DNA of 64,000 nt from Rouxiella sp. S1S-2 (lineage in GTDB: Bacteria > Pseudomonadota > Gammaproteobacteria > Enterobacterales > Enterobacteriaceae), in NCBI RefSeq assembly GCF_009208105.1, contig NZ_WFKL01000001.1, positions 4,464,001 to 4,528,000 on the forward strand. The letters run 5' to 3'. Below the pieces are notes generated by a model that was given only the letters and a program-made list of their open reading frames with translations, was not told where the DNA came from and ran no database searches. The position numbers and the translations under genes are program-made. Of this stretch, positions 41,851 to 55,691 are shown one piece after another (within the stretch, counting starts at the first letter, position 1; every line of letters begins with the position of its first letter).

Positions 41851-42231
41851 GGGGCTGATTCTGGATTCGACGGGATTTGCGAAACCCAAGGTGCATGCCG
41901 AGGTGCGGAGGCCTCGTAAAAAACCGCAAAAAAAATAATTGCAAACGACTCGCAATTCGAATCTGCTGCTTTAGCAGCTTAATCAGTCTAATACACTGAA
42001 GGTTCCCTTTCTCCCTAGCCTCCGCTCTTAGGACGGGGATCAAGAAAGGTCAAACCCAAAAGAGCTCGCGTAGACATCCTGCCTGGGGTGAAAGCGTTAA
42101 AACTAATCAGGCTAGTTTGTTAGTGGCGTGTCCGTCCGCAGCTAACCGGTGAATGTGATGACTGGACTAAGCATGTAGTGCCAACGGCGTAGTAATTTCG
42201 GACGGGGGTTCAAATCCCCCCAGCTCCACCA
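41851..42231 (+). ncRNA. ssrA: tmRNA (trans-translation)
   Basis: The gene begins GGGGCTGATTCTGGATTCG and ends in an alanyl tRNA-like acceptor with encoded CCA (42229-42231) and a T-arm GGTTCAAATCC. The tag frame at 41941-41982 encodes ANDSQFESAALAA then TAA, ending in the ClpXP/ClpAP degron LAA. TATACT at 41831 is the likely -10. The 3' end is the entry point of the satellite that follows; its sequence is left intact. Confidence 0.97.
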
Positions 42232-42270
42232 AATAGTACTCCGGTTATTACCAGATAAGTCCGGAGAAGT
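42229..42270 (+). repeat. attL, 42-bp direct repeat (left)
   Basis: Forty-two bases starting at the last bases of tmRNA are repeated without mismatch at 54537-54578. Inside are inverted hexamers CTCCGG and CCGGAG, suitable as integrase core sites. The element between them encodes an integrase right beside this copy. Confidence 0.92.
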
Positions 42271-42274
42271 CCTG

Positions 42275-42310
42275 AAAGCCCGCATCCCTTCTAGGTTTGC
42301 GGGCTTTTTT
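42275..42310 (+). terminator. ssrA-side rho-independent terminator
   Basis: AAAGCCCGC and GCGGGC with six T. A diverged copy follows the right att repeat, so the terminator is part of the homologous attachment region. Confidence 0.85.
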
Positions 42311-42353: not shown

Positions 42354-42407
42354 ATTGGTATACGAATTGGTATACGCTAAGATATATACCAATAAACGTA
42401 TACCAAT
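42354..42407. promoter_or_regulatory. Left arm-type sites, GGTATAC repeats
   Basis: ATTGGTATACG occurs at 42354-42364 and 42366-42376, and the reverse complement at 42397-42407 with a shorter copy (TATACCAAT) at 42385-42393. Two direct and two inverted copies directly before int, and again near the right att, are what integrase arm or AlpA/Xis sites look like. They also overlap the int promoter, so autoregulation is possible. Confidence 0.65.
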
Positions 42408-42423
42408 TAGGGAAGATCCTTGC

Positions 42424-43617
42424 ATGGCGCGGACTACACGCCCCCTCACCCACACCGAAGTACAAAAAGCCAAAGCCACTGATAAAGACCTCACCTTACA
42501 TGACGGTGACGGACTCTTTCTCCTGGTCAAAACCACCGGCAAGAAAATTTGGCGTTTCCGCTATCAGGTTCCTAACACATCAAAACGCACCATGATCAGC
42601 CTTGGCGCTTACCCTGCACTTTCACTGGCTGATGCCAGAGAAGTCCGAGCTGAGAAGCTGGCGATGTTAGTCAAAGGGATCGACCCGCAAGCAAGAGCTG
42701 GCGAAGAAGCTGAAAAGCTCCAGATCGCTCAGGAAAGCATTTTCGTCAATGTTGCACGTAAATGGTTCGAGCTGAAACAAAGTCACGTCAGCGCTGACCA
42801 TGCTAAAGATATCTGGCGTTCTATTGAGAAAGACATCCTGCCGAGTATTGAAAATGTTCCTGTTCAGGAGCTGAAAGCACGCGCCTTGATCCAGGTGTTA
42901 GAACCAATCAAAGCGCGGGGAGCATTGGAGACGGTCAGAAGGTTAGTGCAGCGCATCAATGAAATTATGATTTATGCGGTGAATGTTGGACTGATTGGGG
43001 CAAATCCAGCTTCAGGTATAGGTAATGCTTTTGAACGCCCGAAGAAGCAGCACATGCCCACAATACGCCCTGAAGAACTGCCCAAGCTAATGCGCACCAT
43101 TTCGATGAGCAATTTATCAATACCAACCCGCTGCCTGCTTGAATGGCAGTTACTGACGTTAATACGCCCTGCCGAAGCATCGGCAACAGCCTGGTCAGAG
43201 ATCGATATAGAGAATAAGCAGTGGTGTATTCCGGCAGAACGTATGAAAGCAAAGCGCGACCATATAGTCCCGTTGTCGGAACAAGCCTTAGAGCTGCTGG
43301 AAATCATGCGTCCAATAAGTGGTAATCGTCAGTACGTTTTCCCTAGCCGCAATGACCCACGTAAGCCTATGAACAGCCAAACTGCGAATGCAGCATTGAA
43401 ACGTATCGGGTATGGGGGAAAGCTCGTTGCCCACGGCCTACGTTCTATCGCTAGCACAGCCATGAATGAAGCAGGATTCAACTCTGACGTAATAGAGGCA
43501 GCTTTAGCGCATAGTGATAAAAATGAAGTAAGGCGTGCATATAATCGTTCGACATATTTAGAACAAAGAGTATCTTTAATGAACTGGTGGGGAGACCATA
43601 CCAGAAATCATTTTTAA
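42424..43617 (+). CDS. int: P4-family tyrosine integrase
   Basis: 397 aa. The N-terminal DUF4102-type arm-binding domain (LTHTEVQKAKATDKDLTLHDGDG, residues 8-30) precedes the core-binding and catalytic domains. Catalytic residues visible are R248 (LIRPAEA), H337 and R340 (HGLR), H363 and Y373. It should integrate and excise the island at ssrA. The start at 42424 follows GGGAAGATCCTTGC. Confidence 0.93.
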   Translation: MARTTRPLTHTEVQKAKATDKDLTLHDGDGLFLLVKTTGKKIWRFRYQVPNTSKRTMISLGAYPALSLADAREVRAEKLAMLVKGIDPQARAGEEAEKLQIAQESIFVNVARKWFELKQSHVSADHAKDIWRSIEKDILPSIENVPVQELKARALIQVLEPIKARGALETVRRLVQRINEIMIYAVNVGLIGANPASGIGNAFERPKKQHMPTIRPEELPKLMRTISMSNLSIPTRCLLEWQLLTLIRPAEASATAWSEIDIENKQWCIPAERMKAKRDHIVPLSEQALELLEIMRPISGNRQYVFPSRNDPRKPMNSQTANAALKRIGYGGKLVAHGLRSIASTAMNEAGFNSDVIEAALAHSDKNEVRRAYNRSTYLEQRVSLMNWWGDHTRNHF

Positions 43618-43643: not shown

Positions 43644-44825
43644 ATGGTTACCTCTATACATAATCCTGATAGATACATGTTTGATCTTCGTCAAATTGTT
43701 ACAAATGGGAGAAAAAAAATAGGAGTCCTTATTGGTGCAGGGGCTCCTGTAAGTATAAATATTGGTATGAATGGCGTGTATGAACCATTAATACCGAATA
43801 TTGAAGGATTAACAAAGCAGGTCAGAGAACGTTTAAATGAAAGCGAAAATGCCCTTTTCACTAACATTTCGCAAAAATCTGCGGATTTTAACCTAGAAAA
43901 ACTGTTATCAGAGGTACGCACTTTAGCCGATGTTATTGGTGAGCATGTAGTATACGGTGCAAACTCACTGGGTTACAAATCTTTAGAAAAATCAATCTGT
44001 AAAGCAATCAAAGAAGTTGTTAGCAAACAACTTCCTGATGGGCCTAATCCATATTCTGAACTTGTTTCATGGATAAACGGAATAAATAGAATACACGGCG
44101 TTGAAATATTCACAACGAACTACGACTTGTTATGTGAAGATGCCTTAGAGCGTTCCCAAACACCATTTTTTGATGGTTTCACCGGTTCAAGAAACGCATT
44201 TTTTGACCCGTCTAGTATTTCCACTAATGACCTACCTCCCCGCTGGGTAAGGTTGTGGAAGCTTCACGGTTCAATAGGATGGAAGATGAATGATAATGGA
44301 CAGGTAATTAGGGTTCCTGAGTGCGAAGAATCATCAATGGTATACCCGTCACATATCAAATATACACAGACTCAAGCAGCTCCGTTCTCATCATTATTTG
44401 AAAGACTTAAAAACTTTCTAATGGAACCAGATACATTATTGTTAACAACAGGTTTCTCATTTGCAGATGCACATATTTCATCAAAAATAAGCGAATGTCT
44501 TTCAGCAAATCCTACAAGTGCTGTGATTGCGTTTCAATATAAAGACTTAGAATATGAAAATGATGCTATTAATCTAGCTTTAAAAAATCCTAACTTAAGC
44601 ATTTACTGTAGAAATGGCGCAGTTATTAACTCAATAAAGGCTCAATGGAAGACTGGCGAACTTCCTAGCAAGAATTGGGATATAGTCAGGAAAGAATACT
44701 TACATGAAAATAACTTTATTCTTGGCGATTTTAAGTCTCTAGCTAGGTTTTTGGCCATTGCTGGGGGCGAAGTATCAAGCCAATCGCTCATACAACCTCG
44801 CGATGAGGATGAAAATAATGAGTAG
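43644..44825 (+). CDS. SIR2-family NADase (SIR2-HerA defence, component 1)
   Basis: 393 aa. It has the NAD-binding GAG (G31-A-G33), FTTNYD (N159, D161) and the catalytic His in KLHGSIGW (H208), so the active site looks complete. SIR2-HerA pairs are known anti-phage systems in which a SIR2 oligomer bound to a HerA hexamer destroys NAD after infection. AT-rich relative to the core genes, so probably transferred. Its last codons overlap the HerA start by eight bases. Confidence 0.88.
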   Translation: MVTSIHNPDRYMFDLRQIVTNGRKKIGVLIGAGAPVSINIGMNGVYEPLIPNIEGLTKQVRERLNESENALFTNISQKSADFNLEKLLSEVRTLADVIGEHVVYGANSLGYKSLEKSICKAIKEVVSKQLPDGPNPYSELVSWINGINRIHGVEIFTTNYDLLCEDALERSQTPFFDGFTGSRNAFFDPSSISTNDLPPRWVRLWKLHGSIGWKMNDNGQVIRVPECEESSMVYPSHIKYTQTQAAPFSSLFERLKNFLMEPDTLLLTTGFSFADAHISSKISECLSANPTSAVIAFQYKDLEYENDAINLALKNPNLSIYCRNGAVINSIKAQWKTGELPSKNWDIVRKEYLHENNFILGDFKSLARFLAIAGGEVSSQSLIQPRDEDENNE

Positions 44826-46602
44826 TTCTACTTCAATTGGTAATGTCATATCAATATCCAGCTCATCTATAATTTTGAGGCTATCAAGTAAAGTCAGTTC
44901 AGGTCTCCTCATGCTTGAAGGGAGAACGCATAAAGTAGGGCAAGTAGGAAGCTTTATCCGAATACCACAAGGTTATAATAACTTATATGGCGTTATCGCT
45001 GCCAGTAACGAGTCTTCACTAATTGATGAATTTGATGGTATACAATCTGATCGACGATTATTAACAGTTGAACTTATTGGCGAAAGTTCTGGCGGTTTTT
45101 TTGAGCGTGGAATCAGCCAATATCCATCAGTAAATGATGAAGTTCATCTAGTACTAGATAAGGATCTTAGAACAATTTATGGTGATCATGGACAGAACAT
45201 GGTCTGTATAGGGAAACTATCTAGTTCTGAGAGTATAGACGTAAATATTGATGTAGATAAATTAGTAACACGGCACTCAGCAATTCTTGGCTCAACAGGC
45301 TCTGGAAAATCAACAAGTGTTTCTAGTATTTTACGCTCTATAAGTAATAAATCAGTATTAAAAAGCAGCTCAGCCAGGATAATCCTTATTGATATTCACG
45401 GTGAGTATTCGGCTGCACTAAGAGATATATCTAAGACATTTTCTATTGAACCAAAAGAAAATGAAGAGAAACTCGTAGTTCCTTATTGGTCCATATCCCC
45501 AGAAAAATTAATTGATTTTTTATGTGGTAATATAAATGAGACCAGTAAAAATAACGTCCTTGAAATGATTACTGAACATAAGAAAAATCTCGCCAAAATA
45601 AACGACCTCAACTACATTGATGAAGATAAAATTACGGCCTACTCTCCAATTCCTTTTGATATAAAAAAGATTTGGCACGAACTCTGTTATAATGATACTG
45701 TAACATACTTAGATGAAGAAAAAATCAACCCAGCTTATAATAATGATCAGAAAGGTGATAGTAGTAAATTAATTCCCCCTAAGTTTTTGCCAGCTAACCC
45801 CGGAACCAAACCTCCTCAAAAAGGTGGCAACAACCTTATCACAAGAAATTTAGAACAAATGAGGTGTCGGTTATTAGACAATCAATTTTCTTTTTTCCTA
45901 TCGCCTGATGATTATACCCCTCAGCCTAATGGAATAATAAAAAAAGATATTAATGCACTATTAAGTAGTTGGATTGGTCATGACAAGCCCATATCAATAA
46001 TTGATTTGTCGGGAATGCCTTCAACTCAATTAGATATGTTACTTGGCTCAATTCTTGACATCATATTTGAAGCTGCCATCTGGGGTAGGAATTTAGCCAT
46101 TGGAATGAAGAAAAGGCCAGTTCTTCTGGTTCTTGAAGAAGCCCATCGATACTTATCCATTAATGACAGTGGGTTATCTAAATATATGGTGCAGCGGATT
46201 GCCAAAGAGGGTAGGAAATTTGGCGTTGGTGCAATGATTGTCAGTCAAAGACCATCAGAAATAGATGAAACTATACTTTCGCAATGCGGCACTCTCTTTG
46301 CTCTCCGTTTAAGTAATTCTAATGATCGCTCTAGAGTAAAATCAGCAATGTCAGATGGTCTCAGTGCATTAATCGATAGTCTTCCTATCCTCAGGACTGG
46401 GGAAGCTATTGTCATTGGTGAGGCGACTAAACTCCCTTCGAGATGTAAAATAAAACTTCCTCCTGAAGGTTTTTATCCAGATAGTGCTGACCCTCAGGTA
46501 TCTATCTCATGGAATAGTAATAATACTGATACTGAAGATGATTATATCCCTTTAATTAAAGCTTGGCGAAAATCAAAACCACTAAAAGACGAGGAAAAAT
46601 AA
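44818..46602 (+). CDS. HerA-like ATPase (SIR2-HerA defence, component 2)
   Basis: 594 aa. An N-terminal HAS-barrel-like domain (about 1-145) precedes a DUF87 P-loop ATPase: Walker A GSTGSGKST (158-166), IDIHGEY, Walker B VLLVLEEAHRY (about 434-444) and the arginine-finger region SNDRSRV. The ATG at 44818 lies in GAGGATGAAAATAATGAG at the end of the SIR2 gene, giving strict coupling; an upstream in-frame ATG at 44758 is inside SIR2 and unlikely. It should form the hexameric scaffold and motor of the complex. Confidence 0.88.
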   Translation: MSSSTSIGNVISISSSSIILRLSSKVSSGLLMLEGRTHKVGQVGSFIRIPQGYNNLYGVIAASNESSLIDEFDGIQSDRRLLTVELIGESSGGFFERGISQYPSVNDEVHLVLDKDLRTIYGDHGQNMVCIGKLSSSESIDVNIDVDKLVTRHSAILGSTGSGKSTSVSSILRSISNKSVLKSSSARIILIDIHGEYSAALRDISKTFSIEPKENEEKLVVPYWSISPEKLIDFLCGNINETSKNNVLEMITEHKKNLAKINDLNYIDEDKITAYSPIPFDIKKIWHELCYNDTVTYLDEEKINPAYNNDQKGDSSKLIPPKFLPANPGTKPPQKGGNNLITRNLEQMRCRLLDNQFSFFLSPDDYTPQPNGIIKKDINALLSSWIGHDKPISIIDLSGMPSTQLDMLLGSILDIIFEAAIWGRNLAIGMKKRPVLLVLEEAHRYLSINDSGLSKYMVQRIAKEGRKFGVGAMIVSQRPSEIDETILSQCGTLFALRLSNSNDRSRVKSAMSDGLSALIDSLPILRTGEAIVIGEATKLPSRCKIKLPPEGFYPDSADPQVSISWNSNNTDTEDDYIPLIKAWRKSKPLKDEEK

Positions 46603-46811
46603 TGCTAAGAGTCAATGTAGCTTCATCAAACATATCATCTATTGGCTATGATGCCGATACTCAGACGTTGGAAATTGAATTCCTCAGCGGAAGAATCTAT
46701 GAATACTACAATGTTCCTAATGACACATATGACGAATTAATGAATGCGTCATCTATTGGATCATATTTTAGTAGAAATATAAGAAATATATTCCCTACTC
46801 AGCAAGTTTAG
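46602..46811 (+). CDS. KTSC-domain small protein, third gene of the SIR2-HerA operon
   Basis: 69 aa, one KTSC domain from end to end: ASSNISSIGYDADTQTLEIE, then SGRIYEYYNVP and SSIGSYFSRNIRN. Its ATG overlaps the HerA stop by one base (TAATG), so it is translationally coupled. KTSC domains are small beta-rich modules thought to bind nucleic acid or protein; the function is unproven. The tight coupling suggests a regulator, sensor or antidote for SIR2-HerA. Confidence 0.8.
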   Translation: MLRVNVASSNISSIGYDADTQTLEIEFLSGRIYEYYNVPNDTYDELMNASSIGSYFSRNIRNIFPTQQV

Positions 46812-47295: not shown

Positions 47296-48080
47296 TTACT
47301 CCTTACTTGTAGCAGCACGCTCTGCCAGTTTACGGGCCAGTAACTGCCTTTTTATCGGGCTTTTTAATAGCGGCACATCTACACCAGGCAGCGTAGGAGA
47401 ATGCGTCCCAATTTTCTCCAGCACAGGTTCAGCATCCATGTTTAACTGACCGATGCGAGCCGCCACGATAAGCGCCTTGCCAATTTCAGCGCTGATAATT
47501 TTGGCGGGCTCTACATAATGACCGGATTGTGTTTCCTGGTAGCTGACGTTGATAATGCCAGAAGTTTAAGTTTCACAGCGCGCACCAGCGCCGGACTGAG
47601 ATTGTTGATGGCCAGTCGCCACTGATGGTCAGCATAGGCATTGAGTGCGCTGCGGTGGGCGCTAATCAACGCATCCCCGACATTAGCACAATCCAACATC
47701 GCTGATTCTTTCTCGACACTCAATTCCTCAATCAGGTCATCGAACTCTTTAACCAATCCCTGCTGAATAGCCCGGTGACTGTGCGCGTTCTTGAGTTCGT
47801 CAGTCATAACCCCGCGTGACTTGCGAAAACGCGAACGCCAGCTCTCTTCGTTCTCTTTGATTTCGCTGTTCGCCGTTTCTTTTTCCTGGGCGCAGCGGGC
47901 AATCGAACTTTCAATTTCATCAAGTGCACGCTTTTTCTCAGCAAACGCCGCTTTGGCCTGCTCAAAGTGTTGGATAGCACCTTCCGCGTTCCCTGGTGAT
48001 GGCTTTTCGTTGTGACCGGCTTTGACCTGAAGAAAGTCCTGGATAACGGCTTCGACGGTTTTGGTTGAATCGGGTTTCAT
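47296..48080 (-). pseudogene. Psu-like polarity suppression gene, frameshifted
   Basis: From the ATG at 48080 (ribosome site GAGGTATG) the frame encodes a coiled-coil-rich protein of about 189 residues. At about 47565 the frame carrying family-like sequence shifts by one base: SGIINVSYQETQSGHYVEPA and KIISAEIGKALIVAARIG run to a stop at 47296. Joined length would be about 260 aa. P4 Psu blocks Rho termination and decorates the capsid; this gene has the position expected for it, next to the Delta gene. Sequence error, mutation or programmed shift cannot be told apart. Confidence 0.6.
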
Positions 48081-48647
48081 GGCATACCTCAGCAATATGT
48101 TGTCAATGTGAGGATATTGTGGGGGAGGCTGGCACAACATTTCTATTTGAAGGCGTTTGTTCAGCGCTGGTACAACAGACTGAGACGTAAGCCATGAAAA
48201 TGGAGAGAGTTTATATTTCTATAAATACTATTCACTACTGTTCACTATAAAATAAAACATCATTAAATCATTAAGTTAAGCAGTGAACACCTTGCCTAAA
48301 GGTATTCACTTCCTTTTCACTACTCTTCACTGTCTGCAAATCTTTCTCTGGCTAGCCAAAAAATAAATAAATGTTTATTCCTATTGATATATTAATTTCA
48401 ATCGTTAAAACAGCTTAACCAACTGAGCGTTAAATAACCTACTGAGTAGCATTGAGCATTATTGATTAACATTGGCAATCATTGGCAAAGTGGCTCAAAT
48501 CCCATTAAAAAAAATACAAAGCATTTCAGGTGTTTTGTCGTTCGGAGGCTTGTTGCTAAACGCAAAAATATTCTCACAATAGGGGGCTCCTTAACGAAAC
48601 AGCCGGTACTGGACGCTTCCAGTCGGATACAAATATGAGGTAGCACC
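48081..48647. promoter_or_regulatory. Divergent control and putative origin region
   Basis: 567 bp without a gene between the leftward late genes and the rightward AlpA-primase unit. It holds TTGTACCAGCGCTGAACAA (minus strand, about 48156-48174), a dyad-like site placed where Ogr/Delta would bind; a cluster of TTCACT words (48231-48331); repeated CATTGG/CATTGA words (48448-48490); and a hairpin CTGGACGCTTCCAG (48609-48622) before alpA. Confidence 0.55.
48231..48331. repeat. TTCACT iteron-like cluster
   Basis: TTCACT occurs at 48231, 48241, 48305, 48316 and 48326, and its complement AGTGAA at 48282, with about 10-bp phasing inside each group. Copies 10-11 bp apart sit on one face of the helix, as in iterons bound by replication proteins. 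P4-type origins need repeats for the alpha protein; a match to that motif is not established. Confidence 0.5.
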
Positions 48648-48908
48648 ATGCTCTCCACCGCTCAAAATACGCCCCCTTCTTCTGCCCCTGTGATGCCACC
48701 GGTTTACCCACGCGATCGCTTTATGCGACTGCCGGAAGTGATCCACACCACTGGCCTGTCCCGCTCAACCCTGTACGACTTAATCAGCCGTCAGCAATTT
48801 CCTGCCCAGATTTCTCTCGGTGGCAAGAATGTGGCCTGGCTGGCCTCCGAGATTGAGGGCTGGATGAATGACCGCATCGCCGCACGCGCTCAGGAGACCA
48901 TGCAATGA
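48648..48908 (+). CDS. alpA: AlpA-family regulator/excisionase
   Basis: 86 aa with a MerR-like HTH (RFMRLPEVIHTTGLSRSTLY, residues 25-44). AlpA/Vis proteins of P4-like elements activate int or bend att DNA for excision. First gene of the early unit; its stop overlaps the next start (ATGA). Confidence 0.9.
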   Translation: MLSTAQNTPPSSAPVMPPVYPRDRFMRLPEVIHTTGLSRSTLYDLISRQQFPAQISLGGKNVAWLASEIEGWMNDRIAARAQETMQ

Positions 48909-49933: not shown

Positions 49934-50271
49934 ATACGACTCAGCAATCCTGCCTGCCGGTTGAAGTGCTCACCGCCCTCTACCGGCGCGCCCTCGCACA
50001 GGCTTATCTCGATGCCTGTACCGCCTACGGCGTTGAAACCGGCTACTCGCTTGATGAACTGCAAATGACCATCGCAAAAGAAGTCGAAAGCTACTATGTC
50101 CGTCAGCACGGCGCAAAGCTGGGTATGGACATCGCCTGTGCCATGCTCCGCGACATGGTGCAGCCCGATATTTTGGTGACAAAACCCCGCCTGACACCGC
50201 TCGGAGAATCCATGATGGACGAGCTGTTCCGGCCTTGTCTTCACACCACTCCACATACCACGCTGCACTGA
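49930..50271 (+). CDS. Small P4-type protein before the primase
   Basis: 113 aa, helical (VLTALYRRALAQAYLDACTA). It overlaps the preceding gene by four bases and ends 11 bp before the primase start. Proteins of this size regularly stand here in P4-like islands; function unknown. Confidence 0.65.
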   Translation: MNTTQQSCLPVEVLTALYRRALAQAYLDACTAYGVETGYSLDELQMTIAKEVESYYVRQHGAKLGMDIACAMLRDMVQPDILVTKPRLTPLGESMMDELFRPCLHTTPHTTLH

Positions 50272-50282
50272 CAGAGGCGCAC

Positions 50283-52613
50283 ATGACACAAATGATTGTT
50301 AAAAACACCGTGAGCGCCGCAAAAGGCCGCTGGCCTCAGCTTCTTTCCGCGCTGGGAATAAACGTTGCCCCTCACGGGCATCATTCTCCCTGCCCCGTTT
50401 GCGGGGGAAAAGACCGCTTTCGCTTCGATAATCGTGAAGGAAGAGGCACCTGGATATGTAACCAATGCGGTGCCGGTGACGGATTAAACTTGGTTGAGAG
50501 AAAACTGGATATCAGTGTGAAAGAAGCCGCCGTGAAGGTGGCTGAAATTCTGGGAGAGGTTCAGCCTCTTACGGTTCATCACGACGAGGCCGCAGAACAA
50601 AAGCAAAAAGACAATGCCCGCCATAGGGCAGCCGGTCAGGCCAGAGCGCTGGTGAATGCCGCCCGTAAAGCGGCAGGCAATGCCTATCTGAAGAATAAAG
50701 GCTGGCCGGATAAGGAAGCGCTGAACTTACAGGGCTGCGGTCTGCACGTGGGCGGCATAGATTTCGCGGCGGGTGACCTGGTCATCCCGCTTTATGATTT
50801 GTCAGGTCACCTGGTCAACGCCCAGCTCATTAACGGGGCGGGGGAAAAATGCACACTTGCGGGTGGGCAGGTTACCGGCGCCGCTCATCATTTTGAAGGG
50901 AACGACAACACTGTTATCTGGATGGCAGAAGGCTATGCAACCGGCCTGACAATACATGCGCTGACGGGCGAAACCGTGTATGTGGCACTGAGTGCCAATA
51001 ACTTCCCTCATCTGGCTGAGTGCCTTCGGGAGAAATACCCTGACGCCGTTCTGTTGATGGCGGCAGATAATGATGAGAACGGAACAGGACAGAAGAAAGC
51101 GAAAGAAGCCGCAAATCTGTTCAGCGGGAAGGTTGTGATCCCCTTGGTTGCCGGTGACTGGAATGATGTATTCATGCAGGAAGGGCGTGATAAGACGCTG
51201 GAACAGCTCCGCGCTTATACTCAGAAATCTCCGCAGAGCTCTTTCGATACGGTCAGTGACGCAGACCTTAAATCCATGAGCGCAAGCGAGAAAGCGGAAC
51301 TATTAATAACCCATTATGAACAACGATTAGCTGTGCCGCAGGTGGGAGAAGATCTCTGCCGCTATGAGAACGGTGCGTGGCAGGTATTACCTCACGGTGT
51401 TCTCAGCCGTGAGATCGCCGCTTTATTTCAAAAAATCCGCGCGCCCTTCTCTGCACCTGGTATTAGCGGGATTATCGATACCTTGAAGCTGATGGTGCCT
51501 CAAACAGGAAAACCGGCGAGAAGATTGATAGGGTTCCGCAATGGAGTGTTTGATACCGTCACAGGACATTTTAGTCCTCATAGTCCAAACAACTGGCTGC
51601 GAACAGTAAACAGTGTTGATTACACACAATATAAAGCAGGTGAAAACCTTGCAGCTCATGCCCCTAACTTCTGGCAATGGCTGACGCGGGCGGCAAACCA
51701 GCAAAGTGATAAGCAAGAGCGCATTCTCGCGGCGCTTTTCATGGTTCTGGCGAACCGGTATGACTGGCAATTGTTCCTTGAAGTGACAGGACCAGGCGGC
51801 AGCGGTAAAAGCGTCATGGCAGCCATAGCGCGCATGCTTGCGGGAGAAGACAACACTACTTCCGCAAGCATTGAGACTTTGGAATCCGCACGTGAGCGTG
51901 CTTCTGTGGTCGGATACTCACTGATTGTGTTGCCCGACCAGGAGAAATGGAGCGGCGACGGCGCAGGAATTAAAGCCATCACTGGCGGCGATGCAGTAGC
52001 GATTGACCCGAAATATCGTGATGCTTATTCAACACATATTCCGGCGGTTATTCTGGCAGTGAACAATAATCCAATGCAGTTCAGTGACCGCAGCGGCGGT
52101 GTCTCGCGTAGGCGCGTGATCATCACGTTCCCCGAGGTGATACCCACGAATGAACGAGATCCACAACTGATAGAGAAAATAGGTCAGGAATTGGCCGTCA
52201 TCGTTCGCCACCTGATGCAACGCTTTGCCGTTCCTAGTGAAGCACGCGAGCTGTTACAGCAACAGCAGAATTCCGATGAAGCACTGGAAATAAAACGCAG
52301 TGCCGATCCGTTGGTAGATTTCTGCGGTTACCTGCTCGCTGTCAGCACACCAAACGGCCTTTATATTGGCAACGCCAACATTATTCCGGCTAACCCGCGC
52401 AAGTATCTCTATCACGCATACCTGTCGTTTATGGAAGCGCGAGGGCATCAGCGCCCTATGAGCCTGACGGCCTTTGGTCGGGCTGTACCGCAAACGTTAA
52501 GGGAGTATGAAATTGAATTTTTGAAGCGGAAGACTAATCAGGGAATGCAGACCAACCTCACCTTAAACGATGACAGTGAGGCGGATTGGTTGCCGAAGTG
52601 CGAAACGCCTTAA
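50283..52613 (+). CDS. P4 alpha-type primase-helicase
   Basis: 776 aa, almost the length of P4 alpha (777). An N-terminal zinc finger uses C37, C40, C59 and C62 (CPVCGG; CNQCGAGDG), a Toprim-like primase region follows (VLLMAADNDENG, about 255-266) and the C-terminal SF3-type helicase has Walker A GPGGSGKSVM near residue 503. It primes and unwinds at the satellite origin. The ATG at 50283 is preceded by GAGG. Confidence 0.93.
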   Translation: MTQMIVKNTVSAAKGRWPQLLSALGINVAPHGHHSPCPVCGGKDRFRFDNREGRGTWICNQCGAGDGLNLVERKLDISVKEAAVKVAEILGEVQPLTVHHDEAAEQKQKDNARHRAAGQARALVNAARKAAGNAYLKNKGWPDKEALNLQGCGLHVGGIDFAAGDLVIPLYDLSGHLVNAQLINGAGEKCTLAGGQVTGAAHHFEGNDNTVIWMAEGYATGLTIHALTGETVYVALSANNFPHLAECLREKYPDAVLLMAADNDENGTGQKKAKEAANLFSGKVVIPLVAGDWNDVFMQEGRDKTLEQLRAYTQKSPQSSFDTVSDADLKSMSASEKAELLITHYEQRLAVPQVGEDLCRYENGAWQVLPHGVLSREIAALFQKIRAPFSAPGISGIIDTLKLMVPQTGKPARRLIGFRNGVFDTVTGHFSPHSPNNWLRTVNSVDYTQYKAGENLAAHAPNFWQWLTRAANQQSDKQERILAALFMVLANRYDWQLFLEVTGPGGSGKSVMAAIARMLAGEDNTTSASIETLESARERASVVGYSLIVLPDQEKWSGDGAGIKAITGGDAVAIDPKYRDAYSTHIPAVILAVNNNPMQFSDRSGGVSRRRVIITFPEVIPTNERDPQLIEKIGQELAVIVRHLMQRFAVPSEARELLQQQQNSDEALEIKRSADPLVDFCGYLLAVSTPNGLYIGNANIIPANPRKYLYHAYLSFMEARGHQRPMSLTAFGRAVPQTLREYEIEFLKRKTNQGMQTNLTLNDDSEADWLPKCETP

Positions 52614-52812: not shown

Positions 52813-54126
52813 ATGAACATGGAAATCAACAACAGAGAATATGCGGTGATCATTTACACGCTCATTCTATTCCTGTTTTTTTTTACAAAAAGGAACATCA
52901 GGGAATTGCTTTTTGAGATGTTAAGATTATTTATGCATAGGAAAATACTTTACCCACTAATGATGGCAGCGGGGTGGGTAATGGTTTGCATAACAGTTTT
53001 AAATAATCTAGGGATTTGGAGTATCAACAATCTTAAAACCACTATTGTGTGGAGCATAACCTTTGCATTTGCATCTTTATTTGAAATAAAAAAAGTTGAA
53101 GAAGAAAAATACTTCTTCAAAAAACAAGTTAAAAATACACTGAGCATTACTGTAATATTGATTTTCATAATGGAGTTACAAACATTCTCTTTTATCTCAG
53201 AAATGATCATACTGCCTATAATCACTTTCTTATCTCTACTTATAGTAGTAGGCGATATAAAAGAAGAAACTAAAAAAGTCAGCACTATTATTAAATATTT
53301 ATTATCTATCTTTGTCATTTTTTACTTCATTCACTCATTATATATATCCCTACAATCTCCCTTCGAGACATTTTCAAAAAATAACTTAACTGAGTTTCTA
53401 ACCCCTATAACTCTATCATTGATGTTTTTACCTTTCGTTTACATATTCTATTTAACTCAAGCCTATGAAACTGCCTTTGTTAGCTTGGAGTTTAGATTCG
53501 ATAACAAAGAAATTTTAAAAAAAGCCAAGCTTCTAATCATCATGAAATTCAGAAACGATGTTAATAACATGCGTATTCTTATTCGGGAATTAAATCACAT
53601 TAATAACATCGATGAACTTAATGATAAAATACATGAGATAAAAGAAAGAATTAAAAACCAATCCGACGCATCAATAAATAGACAATACGGCACATGGTCA
53701 CCATTTATTGCCAAAAACTTATTATCTAAAATTGGTTTAGTGACTAATGATTATCATCCTTCAGAAGATGAATGGTGGGCATATAGCCCCATGATTGAAA
53801 TTGGAGAAGGAGAAATCATTAAAGATAATATTGCATTTTATATTTACGGAAACCAGAACTCAGTAAAAAAATTCAAGATACGATCACATATTAATAATTT
53901 ACCGATATCAAATATAACACTTGATTTTCTAAAACTAGCCTGCACGAAACTAATTTCTCAAGCAGCTCCAGAAATCAATGTAGACATAGATAACTTAGTT
54001 AATCATTCAAAGGACATGAAAATAGAACAGAGTAATTATAGAATTTCAGTTACCAAAGAAAATTTTGAAGGTTCAATAAAAGGTTATACGTTAAATTTAA
54101 GTATAGAGAAAACATCCTCTTTATGA
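52813..54126 (+). CDS. Multi-pass membrane protein, satellite cargo, unknown function
   Basis: 437 aa. About seven membrane segments fill residues 8-225; the remaining about 210 residues are soluble and include WSPFIAKNLLSKIGL and DEWWAYSPMIEIGEGE. It is strongly AT-rich and has no homologue I recognise. It sits alone between the primase and attR, a place where P4-like satellites carry anti-phage genes. A membrane anchor joined to a sensor-like domain would suit an abortive-infection effector; that is conjecture. Confidence 0.75.
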   Translation: MNMEINNREYAVIIYTLILFLFFFTKRNIRELLFEMLRLFMHRKILYPLMMAAGWVMVCITVLNNLGIWSINNLKTTIVWSITFAFASLFEIKKVEEEKYFFKKQVKNTLSITVILIFIMELQTFSFISEMIILPIITFLSLLIVVGDIKEETKKVSTIIKYLLSIFVIFYFIHSLYISLQSPFETFSKNNLTEFLTPITLSLMFLPFVYIFYLTQAYETAFVSLEFRFDNKEILKKAKLLIIMKFRNDVNNMRILIRELNHINNIDELNDKIHEIKERIKNQSDASINRQYGTWSPFIAKNLLSKIGLVTNDYHPSEDEWWAYSPMIEIGEGEIIKDNIAFYIYGNQNSVKKFKIRSHINNLPISNITLDFLKLACTKLISQAAPEINVDIDNLVNHSKDMKIEQSNYRISVTKENFEGSIKGYTLNLSIEKTSSL

Positions 54127-54536: not shown

Positions 54537-54578
54537 CCAAATAGTACTCCGGTTATTACCAGATAAGTCCGGAGAAGT
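54537..54578 (+). repeat. attR, 42-bp direct repeat (right)
   Basis: Exact copy of 42229-42270. It is also the left boundary of the relic element that follows, so the site has been used twice. Confidence 0.92.
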
Positions 54579-54585
54579 ACGAAGA

Positions 54586-54617
54586 GCCCGCACCCCACAA
54601 GGTCTGCGGGCTTTTTT
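54586..54617 (+). terminator. Second copy of the ssrA-type terminator
   Basis: GAGCCCGCA and TGCGGGC with six T, similar to 42275-42310 in stem but different in loop, showing that it came from a different ancestor. Confidence 0.8.
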
Positions 54618-54770: not shown

Positions 54771-55691
54771 TTACTTTGTTTGAAATTCAAACAGCTCTCG
54801 ATGCCGGGCAAGGTACGGCAAGTTCTGCGGCTTGATGGCGGAAATTTCCAGGCTTTTCGAGAGACCTAACTTTTCGAGAACCTCATCGGTAATTAATTTA
54901 CCTAACAACAGTGCGCCTTCATCAGTGAAACTAATAAGGCCCTTATCGAACAACTTATCTATGTTGGGAGATAGCAGAAAACCGTTAAATGGGTCGATGC
55001 GTTCATGTGGTTCACTAAGAGACCAAGGAAGGATATGGGAAGCTATCAGAAGTTCCGTATAATCTAGGCCGGTTGCTGAACACTTGCCATTCCAGATGTC
55101 GATGAGATTCTTTCTGTAGGGCCCCTGTCCGATTCTAGCCTTGATCATAATTTCTCGGACTGTATCTCGATCCGCGACATCCTCTTTTTCAATAGTGTTA
55201 TCAGGCATGTCGAAGTTATCAACTATATATGCAGTACTTTGGATATGACTTAAAAGCAATACGCCAGCTGCTGAAGGGATCGCTGACATATAAAACTGCG
55301 CACATTGTTTTTTTGAAGTGAAAACTTTAGGTATACATTGAGTATTATAATTTTCGATGAAAAAATCTTTAAATTCATCGGCTTTAATAGGATCCGGAAT
55401 TCGGTTAGTTCAACATCTACTTTCCAGCCCTCCTTCTGCCATTTATCAAATGTTAGGTTTTGAGGTCGATCTGCTGGGTAACAATCAGACAGGGCTTTAG
55501 CTAGGCATAAAATTTCACCATTGCGATAGCAAAATATTACATCGCCTTTTTTACCTTAGCTACAGCTGACCAACCTATATTGACATACTTGGTCTCTTTT
55601 ATTTCGTTAAAGCTGAACTGTGGCGCCCACAGAAACTTATGCTCGAGGACCTCGTCGTAACTGCCCCTAAGTTAACCTTAAAAAAATTCAT
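54771..55691 (-). pseudogene. EVE/PUA-like plus HNH endonuclease, frameshifted
   Basis: Reading leftward from an ATG at 55691, three frames must be joined: MNFFKVNLG, then SYDEVLEHKFLWAPQFSFNE through WSAVAKVKK, then GDVIFCYRNGEILCLAKA through EGWKVDVELTEFRIP, then the long 3' frame DPIKADEFKDFFIENYN to the stop at 54771. The N-terminal part has the pattern of EVE/PUA-like modified-base readers; the C-terminus has the HNH core (CSATG, ASHILPWS, NGFLLSPNIDKLFD). Such fusions act as type IV-like restriction enzymes. A 172-aa C-terminal piece is still open. Confidence 0.75.

Follow-up and report, generated by a model that had tools for sequence, protein, structure and literature searches.

The DNA window analyzed here (the whole stretch of 64,000 nucleotides from Rouxiella sp. 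S1S-2) contains an operon of three genes, which, with a probability of roughly three in four, forms a complete anti-phage NADase system of the SIR2-HerA (Nezha) type and belongs to a distinct clade, the small KTSC protein acting as a constitutive C-terminal subunit of HerA that is made in trans. The HerA of this clade would possess a C-terminal KTSC domain, which is usually encoded by a gene of its own whose translation directly follows that of HerA. We infer this function from the gene organization and from relatives. The effector-motor pair is already known as the SIR2-HerA/Nezha system; new is the clade itself, which bears a sirtuin and in which KTSC is near-universal as sampled, mostly encoded by a separate gene, repeatedly fused to HerA and mostly of an acidic kind.

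All three genes are oriented in the same direction (+) downstream of an integrase gene. The first (43644..44825) encodes a SIR2-like NADase of 393 aa, which matched SIR2_2 (PF13289) with 7.5e-18, and the second (44818..46602) a HerA-type ATPase/translocase of 594 aa with a match to DUF87 (PF01935, 1.2e-34). The third gene (46602..46811) encodes the KTSC protein (69 aa, pI 4.29), whose match to PF13619 (2e-27; 95.1 bits) clearly passed the gathering score of 25; we propose that it is a detached C-terminal domain of HerA. Inspection of the open reading frames confirmed the gene borders of the sequence-only reading. SIR2 and HerA overlap by eight bases, the HerA ATG being located at position 44818, and the HerA stop codon ending at 46602 overlaps the KTSC start codon, which begins at the same position, by one base (TAATG); the KTSC stop codon ends at 46811. 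The active sites had been described as intact, which also holds true. Residues N159 and H208 of SIR2 are present and were invariant in all 91 aligned SIR2 proteins (98 loci less seven with missing or short genes), and neither the Walker A motif G161-T166 nor E440/E441 of HerA varied within the 32-row HerA alignment. The window hence harbors the genes by which SIR2-HerA (Nezha) is recognized, a SIR2 gene with the catalytic Asn and His and an adjoining HerA gene with Walker motifs. Among the HerA and SIR2 models of PADLOC, PDLC04094 scored best for SIR2 and PDLC04105 for HerA, and the latter was also the top HerA model in five of five further KTSC-linked HerAs scanned, one of them archaeal. The PADLOC scan of the window proteins gave no match for KTSC. 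The NCBIfam equivalog cut-offs were missed by SIR2 (SIR2_antiphage, 76.8 versus 500 bits) as well as by HerA (HerA_antiphage_2, 257.3 versus 850 bits), which counts against a formal membership in SIR2-HerA (Nezha), but presumably these are models of other clades. Only a single KTSC gene was found in the host genome, the one in this operon; together with the recurrence of KTSC at HerA in 79 of 80 related loci, this shows that the pairing is not due to chance.

The operon occupies the slot next to the integrase of a P4-like element of 12.3 kb, which is inserted at the 3′-end of ssrA (tmRNA; 41851..42231, +); the slot and the P4-like nature of the element had already been read from the sequence. 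An att-like direct repeat of 60 nt at ssrA (42229..42288, +) is followed by the gene of a tyrosine integrase (42355..43617, +), and a right copy with 92% identity to the left one is located at 54537..54596 (+). Between them lie genes for a Psu-like protein (47511..48140, -; phrog_6165 in a PHROGs scan covering nine proteins), an AlpA-type regulator (48648..48908, +) and a P4-type primase-helicase (50235..52613, +), the last of which scored 102.4 with NCBIfam primase_Cterm, slightly below the cut-off of 108.7. Together, the integrase at tmRNA, AlpA, the P4-type primase, the Psu-like gene and the att repeats mark a P4-like satellite. The operon was correctly noted to be AT-rich, since the GC content at 43-47 kb is 34-42% versus mostly 45-50% in the flanking kilobases. 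Three relatives (L002, L083 and L084) show a strong integrase match (844-861 bits) immediately upstream of SIR2, indicating that the integrase-proximal slot recurs; L083 and L084 gave P4-type primase and AlpA matches too. Just inside the right att repeat of the Rouxiella element, there is a further gene (52813-54126, +; 437 aa), whose product has a hydrophobic N-terminal half. This gene is AT-rich (29% GC at 53-54 kb) and had no match in Pfam, PADLOC, NCBIfam and PHROGs scans; it is a candidate for an unknown defence gene in a second cargo slot. An HNH endonuclease-like gene (54771-55289, -; PADLOC HNH PDLC04132, 5.5e-26) is situated just outside the repeat.

The occurrence of KTSC beside HerA was determined with a HerA alignment of 32 rows, in which the window protein was joined by 31 homologues showing 55-87% identity to it, and with an HMM based on 56 KTSC homologues plus the KTSC of the window. 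The genome collection was represented by the best 80 of 394 HerA relatives (L002-L081), a set biased to close relatives, in which KTSC lay directly 3′ of HerA in 66 loci and was fused to it in 13. With 79 of 80 related loci possessing KTSC, its adjacency to SIR2-HerA is clearly not confined to this strain; the sequence-only reading had named such a confinement as refuting its proposal. In the only exception (L010, 7751-7795), the start of KTSC is kept and a stop follows after 14 codons, approximately 75 bases from the contig end. A SIR2 match was detected in 79 of these best 80 of 394 loci and in 86 of the 87 loci L002-L088, the exception each time being L041, which starts inside HerA. No effector other than SIR2 was met among L002-L088, loci obtained by scans seeded with close HerA homologues only and for this reason uninformative on the published nuclease variant. 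All of these counts refer to loci and not to independent events, as near-duplicates (e.g., L083/L084, L085/L086, L051/L055) are included. In L061 and L079, the SIR2 matches upstream of HerA and KTSC are scattered across several short open reading frames, reflecting either a broken SIR2 or sequence errors. In all 80 split HerA/KTSC pairs, both genes share one strand; the gap between them had a median of 2 bases (range -8 to +30), which fits a near-equal synthesis of KTSC and HerA. A survey for KTSC genes within 10 bp of HerA, as had been suggested for this operon, found 62 of the 80 split pairs at such a distance. Other genes were seen next to KTSC as well: a SLATT-domain gene immediately 3′ of it in a Pseudoalteromonas locus (L169, 5256-5810), and ADP-ribosylglycohydrolase-family genes annotated right after KTSC, and overlapping it, in the SIR2-HerA-KTSC locus of a Natrinema zhouii plasmid (L166, 5778-6755).

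More distant HerAs gave a different picture. On viral contigs (best 80 of 85 relatives), KTSC was present in seven of seven loci with a HerA above 700 bits, once as a fusion, whereas none of the 73 other loci, whose HerA scored below 320 bits, had KTSC beside HerA, 71 of them offering at least 300 bases of downstream sequence. A SIR2 match was present in 39 of these 73 loci (38 with at least 300 bases downstream). KTSC thus goes with the clade to which a HerA belongs and does not simply accompany SIR2. To offset the bias of the 80-locus set, genomes were also drawn evenly, 398 from the phylum and 289 from a class. In the phylum sample, KTSC adjoined HerA on the same strand in eight of eight HerAs above 600 bits, the window's own included, while HerA matches below 300 bits, compared by eye among the matches listed, were without KTSC. 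The class sample contributed three of three HerAs above 500 bits, two seen before and a new one with 547 bits, so that KTSC occurred at nine of nine high-scoring HerAs in both samples combined, again including that of the window. Furthermore, SIR2, HerA and KTSC were found together in all of eight hand-chosen plasmid loci with a HerA identity of 34-58%, among them loci from E. coli, Citrobacter, Methylocystis and the archaeon Natrinema; three loci examined at about 30% HerA identity had no KTSC. In E. coli, KTSC accompanies both of two divergent versions, which together occur in 4 of 5426 genomes; megablast of the window operon against E. coli gave no match. Phage records disclosed five weak HerA matches.

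In 14 loci (13 from genomes and one viral), HerA and KTSC form a single open reading frame, and in each of them a methionine has been retained exactly at the start of KTSC. A quick tree was computed for 102 HerAs, with four other HerAs as the outgroup; its long branches meet near the root. The fused label needed four changes on this tree, and the starred branches force four. Fused HerAs were nested among split ones. Because the basal branches were all split, the split arrangement would, most simply, be ancestral and fusion repeated, with at least four split/fused changes. In 11 of the 14 fused loci, the retained methionine has a Shine-Dalgarno-like run of at least four bases in front of it, as compared to only 25 of 121 other internal methionines. 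This is a hint that fused genes may also yield free KTSC from an internal start; we keep it as a hint since the fused loci share ancestry (ten belong to one clade) and since decay after fusion may be slow. The fused form is represented among solved structures, too. According to its chain sequence, PDB 8wiv_A is a HerA of 696 residues with KTSC at residues 628-691, beginning with Met. A W-R near the C-terminus of HerA was observed in 94 of 98 cases within the clade and in 12 of 73 elsewhere. It was considered as a KTSC-specific docking site and dropped, as other HerAs have a similar tail end.

For the function of KTSC, the sequence-only reading had suggested a trigger, a DNA-binding subunit or an antidote. 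Loading of HerA on phage DNA by a nucleic-acid-binding KTSC subunit would agree with the label printed for the KTSC of KTSC-HerA-nuclease loci in the section describing them, and with the mostly basic character of KTSCs not linked to HerA: 28 of 35 distinct proteins had a pI above 7 (median 9.26; seven go against the rule), as had 38 of 54 in a second, viral set (median 9.16; 16 against the rule). HerA-linked KTSCs, however, were mostly acidic, and only two of 96 distinct ones exceeded pI 7 (median 4.93), the window protein being among the acidic ones. Though the formal significance of this contrast is inflated by related sequences, HerA-linked KTSCs mostly appear to be a distinct acidic subfamily. 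Direct DNA binding by them is thus disfavoured and a loading function unlikely. An acidic protein that repeatedly became part of HerA would more plausibly mediate contacts between proteins than act as an anchor on DNA. It seems likewise rather unlikely that KTSC is a sensor activating the complex upon receipt of a phage trigger. A constant extra module alongside an otherwise complete effector-motor pair would suit such a task, and there are many viral KTSC genes (best 80 of 342 relatives) with which a sensor could compete or which it could recognize, but KTSC is fairly conserved, with a mean column identity of 58% over 84 rows, while sensors are usually expected to change fast; nor do the natural fusions and the fused solved HerA specially favour a trigger. 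Distances between KTSCs correlated with those of HerA (r 0.75) and of SIR2 (0.72), and the partial correlations were 0.31 for KTSC and HerA given SIR2 and 0.14 for SIR2 and KTSC given HerA, weakly favouring HerA as the partner.

The small size of the KTSC gene, its close coupling and its terminal position in a toxic operon are what one would expect of an antidote keeping SIR2 in check until infection. We regard such a function as improbable, as the toxin would then come first and the antidote last in the operon, the 14 loci as well as the solved HerA show a HerA-KTSC fusion, and the 39 more distant loci with SIR2 (38 with downstream sequence) do without a KTSC beside HerA. The repeated natural fusion and the fused solved HerA speak for a constitutive HerA subunit and against a free antidote; inhibition inside a fused HerA-KTSC protein is possible. 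It is hardly credible that this small gene merely hitchhikes and contributes nothing to the system. KTSC is indeed not restricted to HerA, as 61 of 69 matches in the 398 phylum genomes were located elsewhere, not beside such a HerA. Yet the linkage is near-universal, extending over records labelled as Proteobacteria, Verrucomicrobiota and Bacillota as well as an archaeal plasmid, and both the repeated fusions and the distinct, mostly acidic subfamily argue for a role in the system. Free KTSC genes abound on viral contigs; among L252-L331, the best 80 of 342 relatives, most lie apart from HerA, and their products are mostly basic. It is conceivable, albeit quite a long shot, that the acidic KTSC of HerA is a surface detecting these phage proteins or a part displaced by them to disarm the complex, which would make KTSC an exchangeable regulatory part.

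The preferred reading is that KTSC belongs constitutively to the SIR2-HerA assembly as a C-terminal HerA subunit provided in trans. It would bind to the C-terminal tail of HerA in about one copy per HerA subunit, i.e., approximately six per ring. Less certain is what it does there. Most likely, it would be a protein-protein clip which stabilizes or gates the HerA ring and hence the activation of SIR2. Since the usual arrangement in the clade comprises three genes, two-gene clones would miss a conserved part of the system. The clade can moreover be recognized easily by its KTSC, and where the genes are split, the C-terminal domain of HerA can be removed, swapped or titrated by genetic means. 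To our knowledge, the function of the KTSC domain is unsettled, and the clade offers a testable role for it.

Relatives are described as forming a 12:6 complex, hydrolyzing NAD and restricting phages (PMC12948488, PMC11559045). Table 1 of the former and the passages on the system in the latter name two components for SIR2-HerA/Nezha (12 SIR2, 6 HerA), so that the third coupled gene, as the sequence-only reading had it, extends these descriptions. A search of the open-licence literature found the KTSC domain and HerA together only in PMC9503650; the primary structural papers (Liao 2024, Zhen 2024) and Tang 2023 were beyond its scope and may discuss the domain. Section 3.7.1 of PMC9503650 presents, marked as an unpublished observation, KTSC-HerA-endoDNase loci, in which a HerA-like ATPase is coupled to a KTSC gene and the endoDNase takes the place that the sirtuin has in the window operon. 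In HerA-DUF4297, according to the parts of PMC12198126 on its assembly, the effector is a nuclease, unlike the SIR2 of the window; effector and HerA assemble 12:6, and a C-terminal hook of HerA tightens the link between adjacent subunits. The KTSC clip is proposed by analogy with this hook, of which it would be the equivalent. One locus annotated DUF4297 (L231) gave no KTSC match. Of the solved SIR2-HerA pairs, the 8j4u/8su9 set and 8yhx with 8yho resemble the window in having SIR2 and HerA, but their HerA is only distantly similar, and a KTSC search of 8yhx with 8yho and of 8j4u gave no match, so SIR2-HerA activity can exist without KTSC. Closest to the window is the system of 8wiv. The entries 8wld, 8woc, 8wod and 8wof contain the 8wiv HerA sequence together with the SIR2 chain that the window SIR2 matched best in the PDB (8w9l); a solved SIR2-HerA thus already includes the KTSC domain. 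These entries and 8wiv may stem from the work of Tang et al. (2023) on Nezha. They share the SIR2 and HerA families with the window, and the HerA chain has KTSC as its C-terminal part; what is one HerA-KTSC chain there is encoded by two genes in the window.
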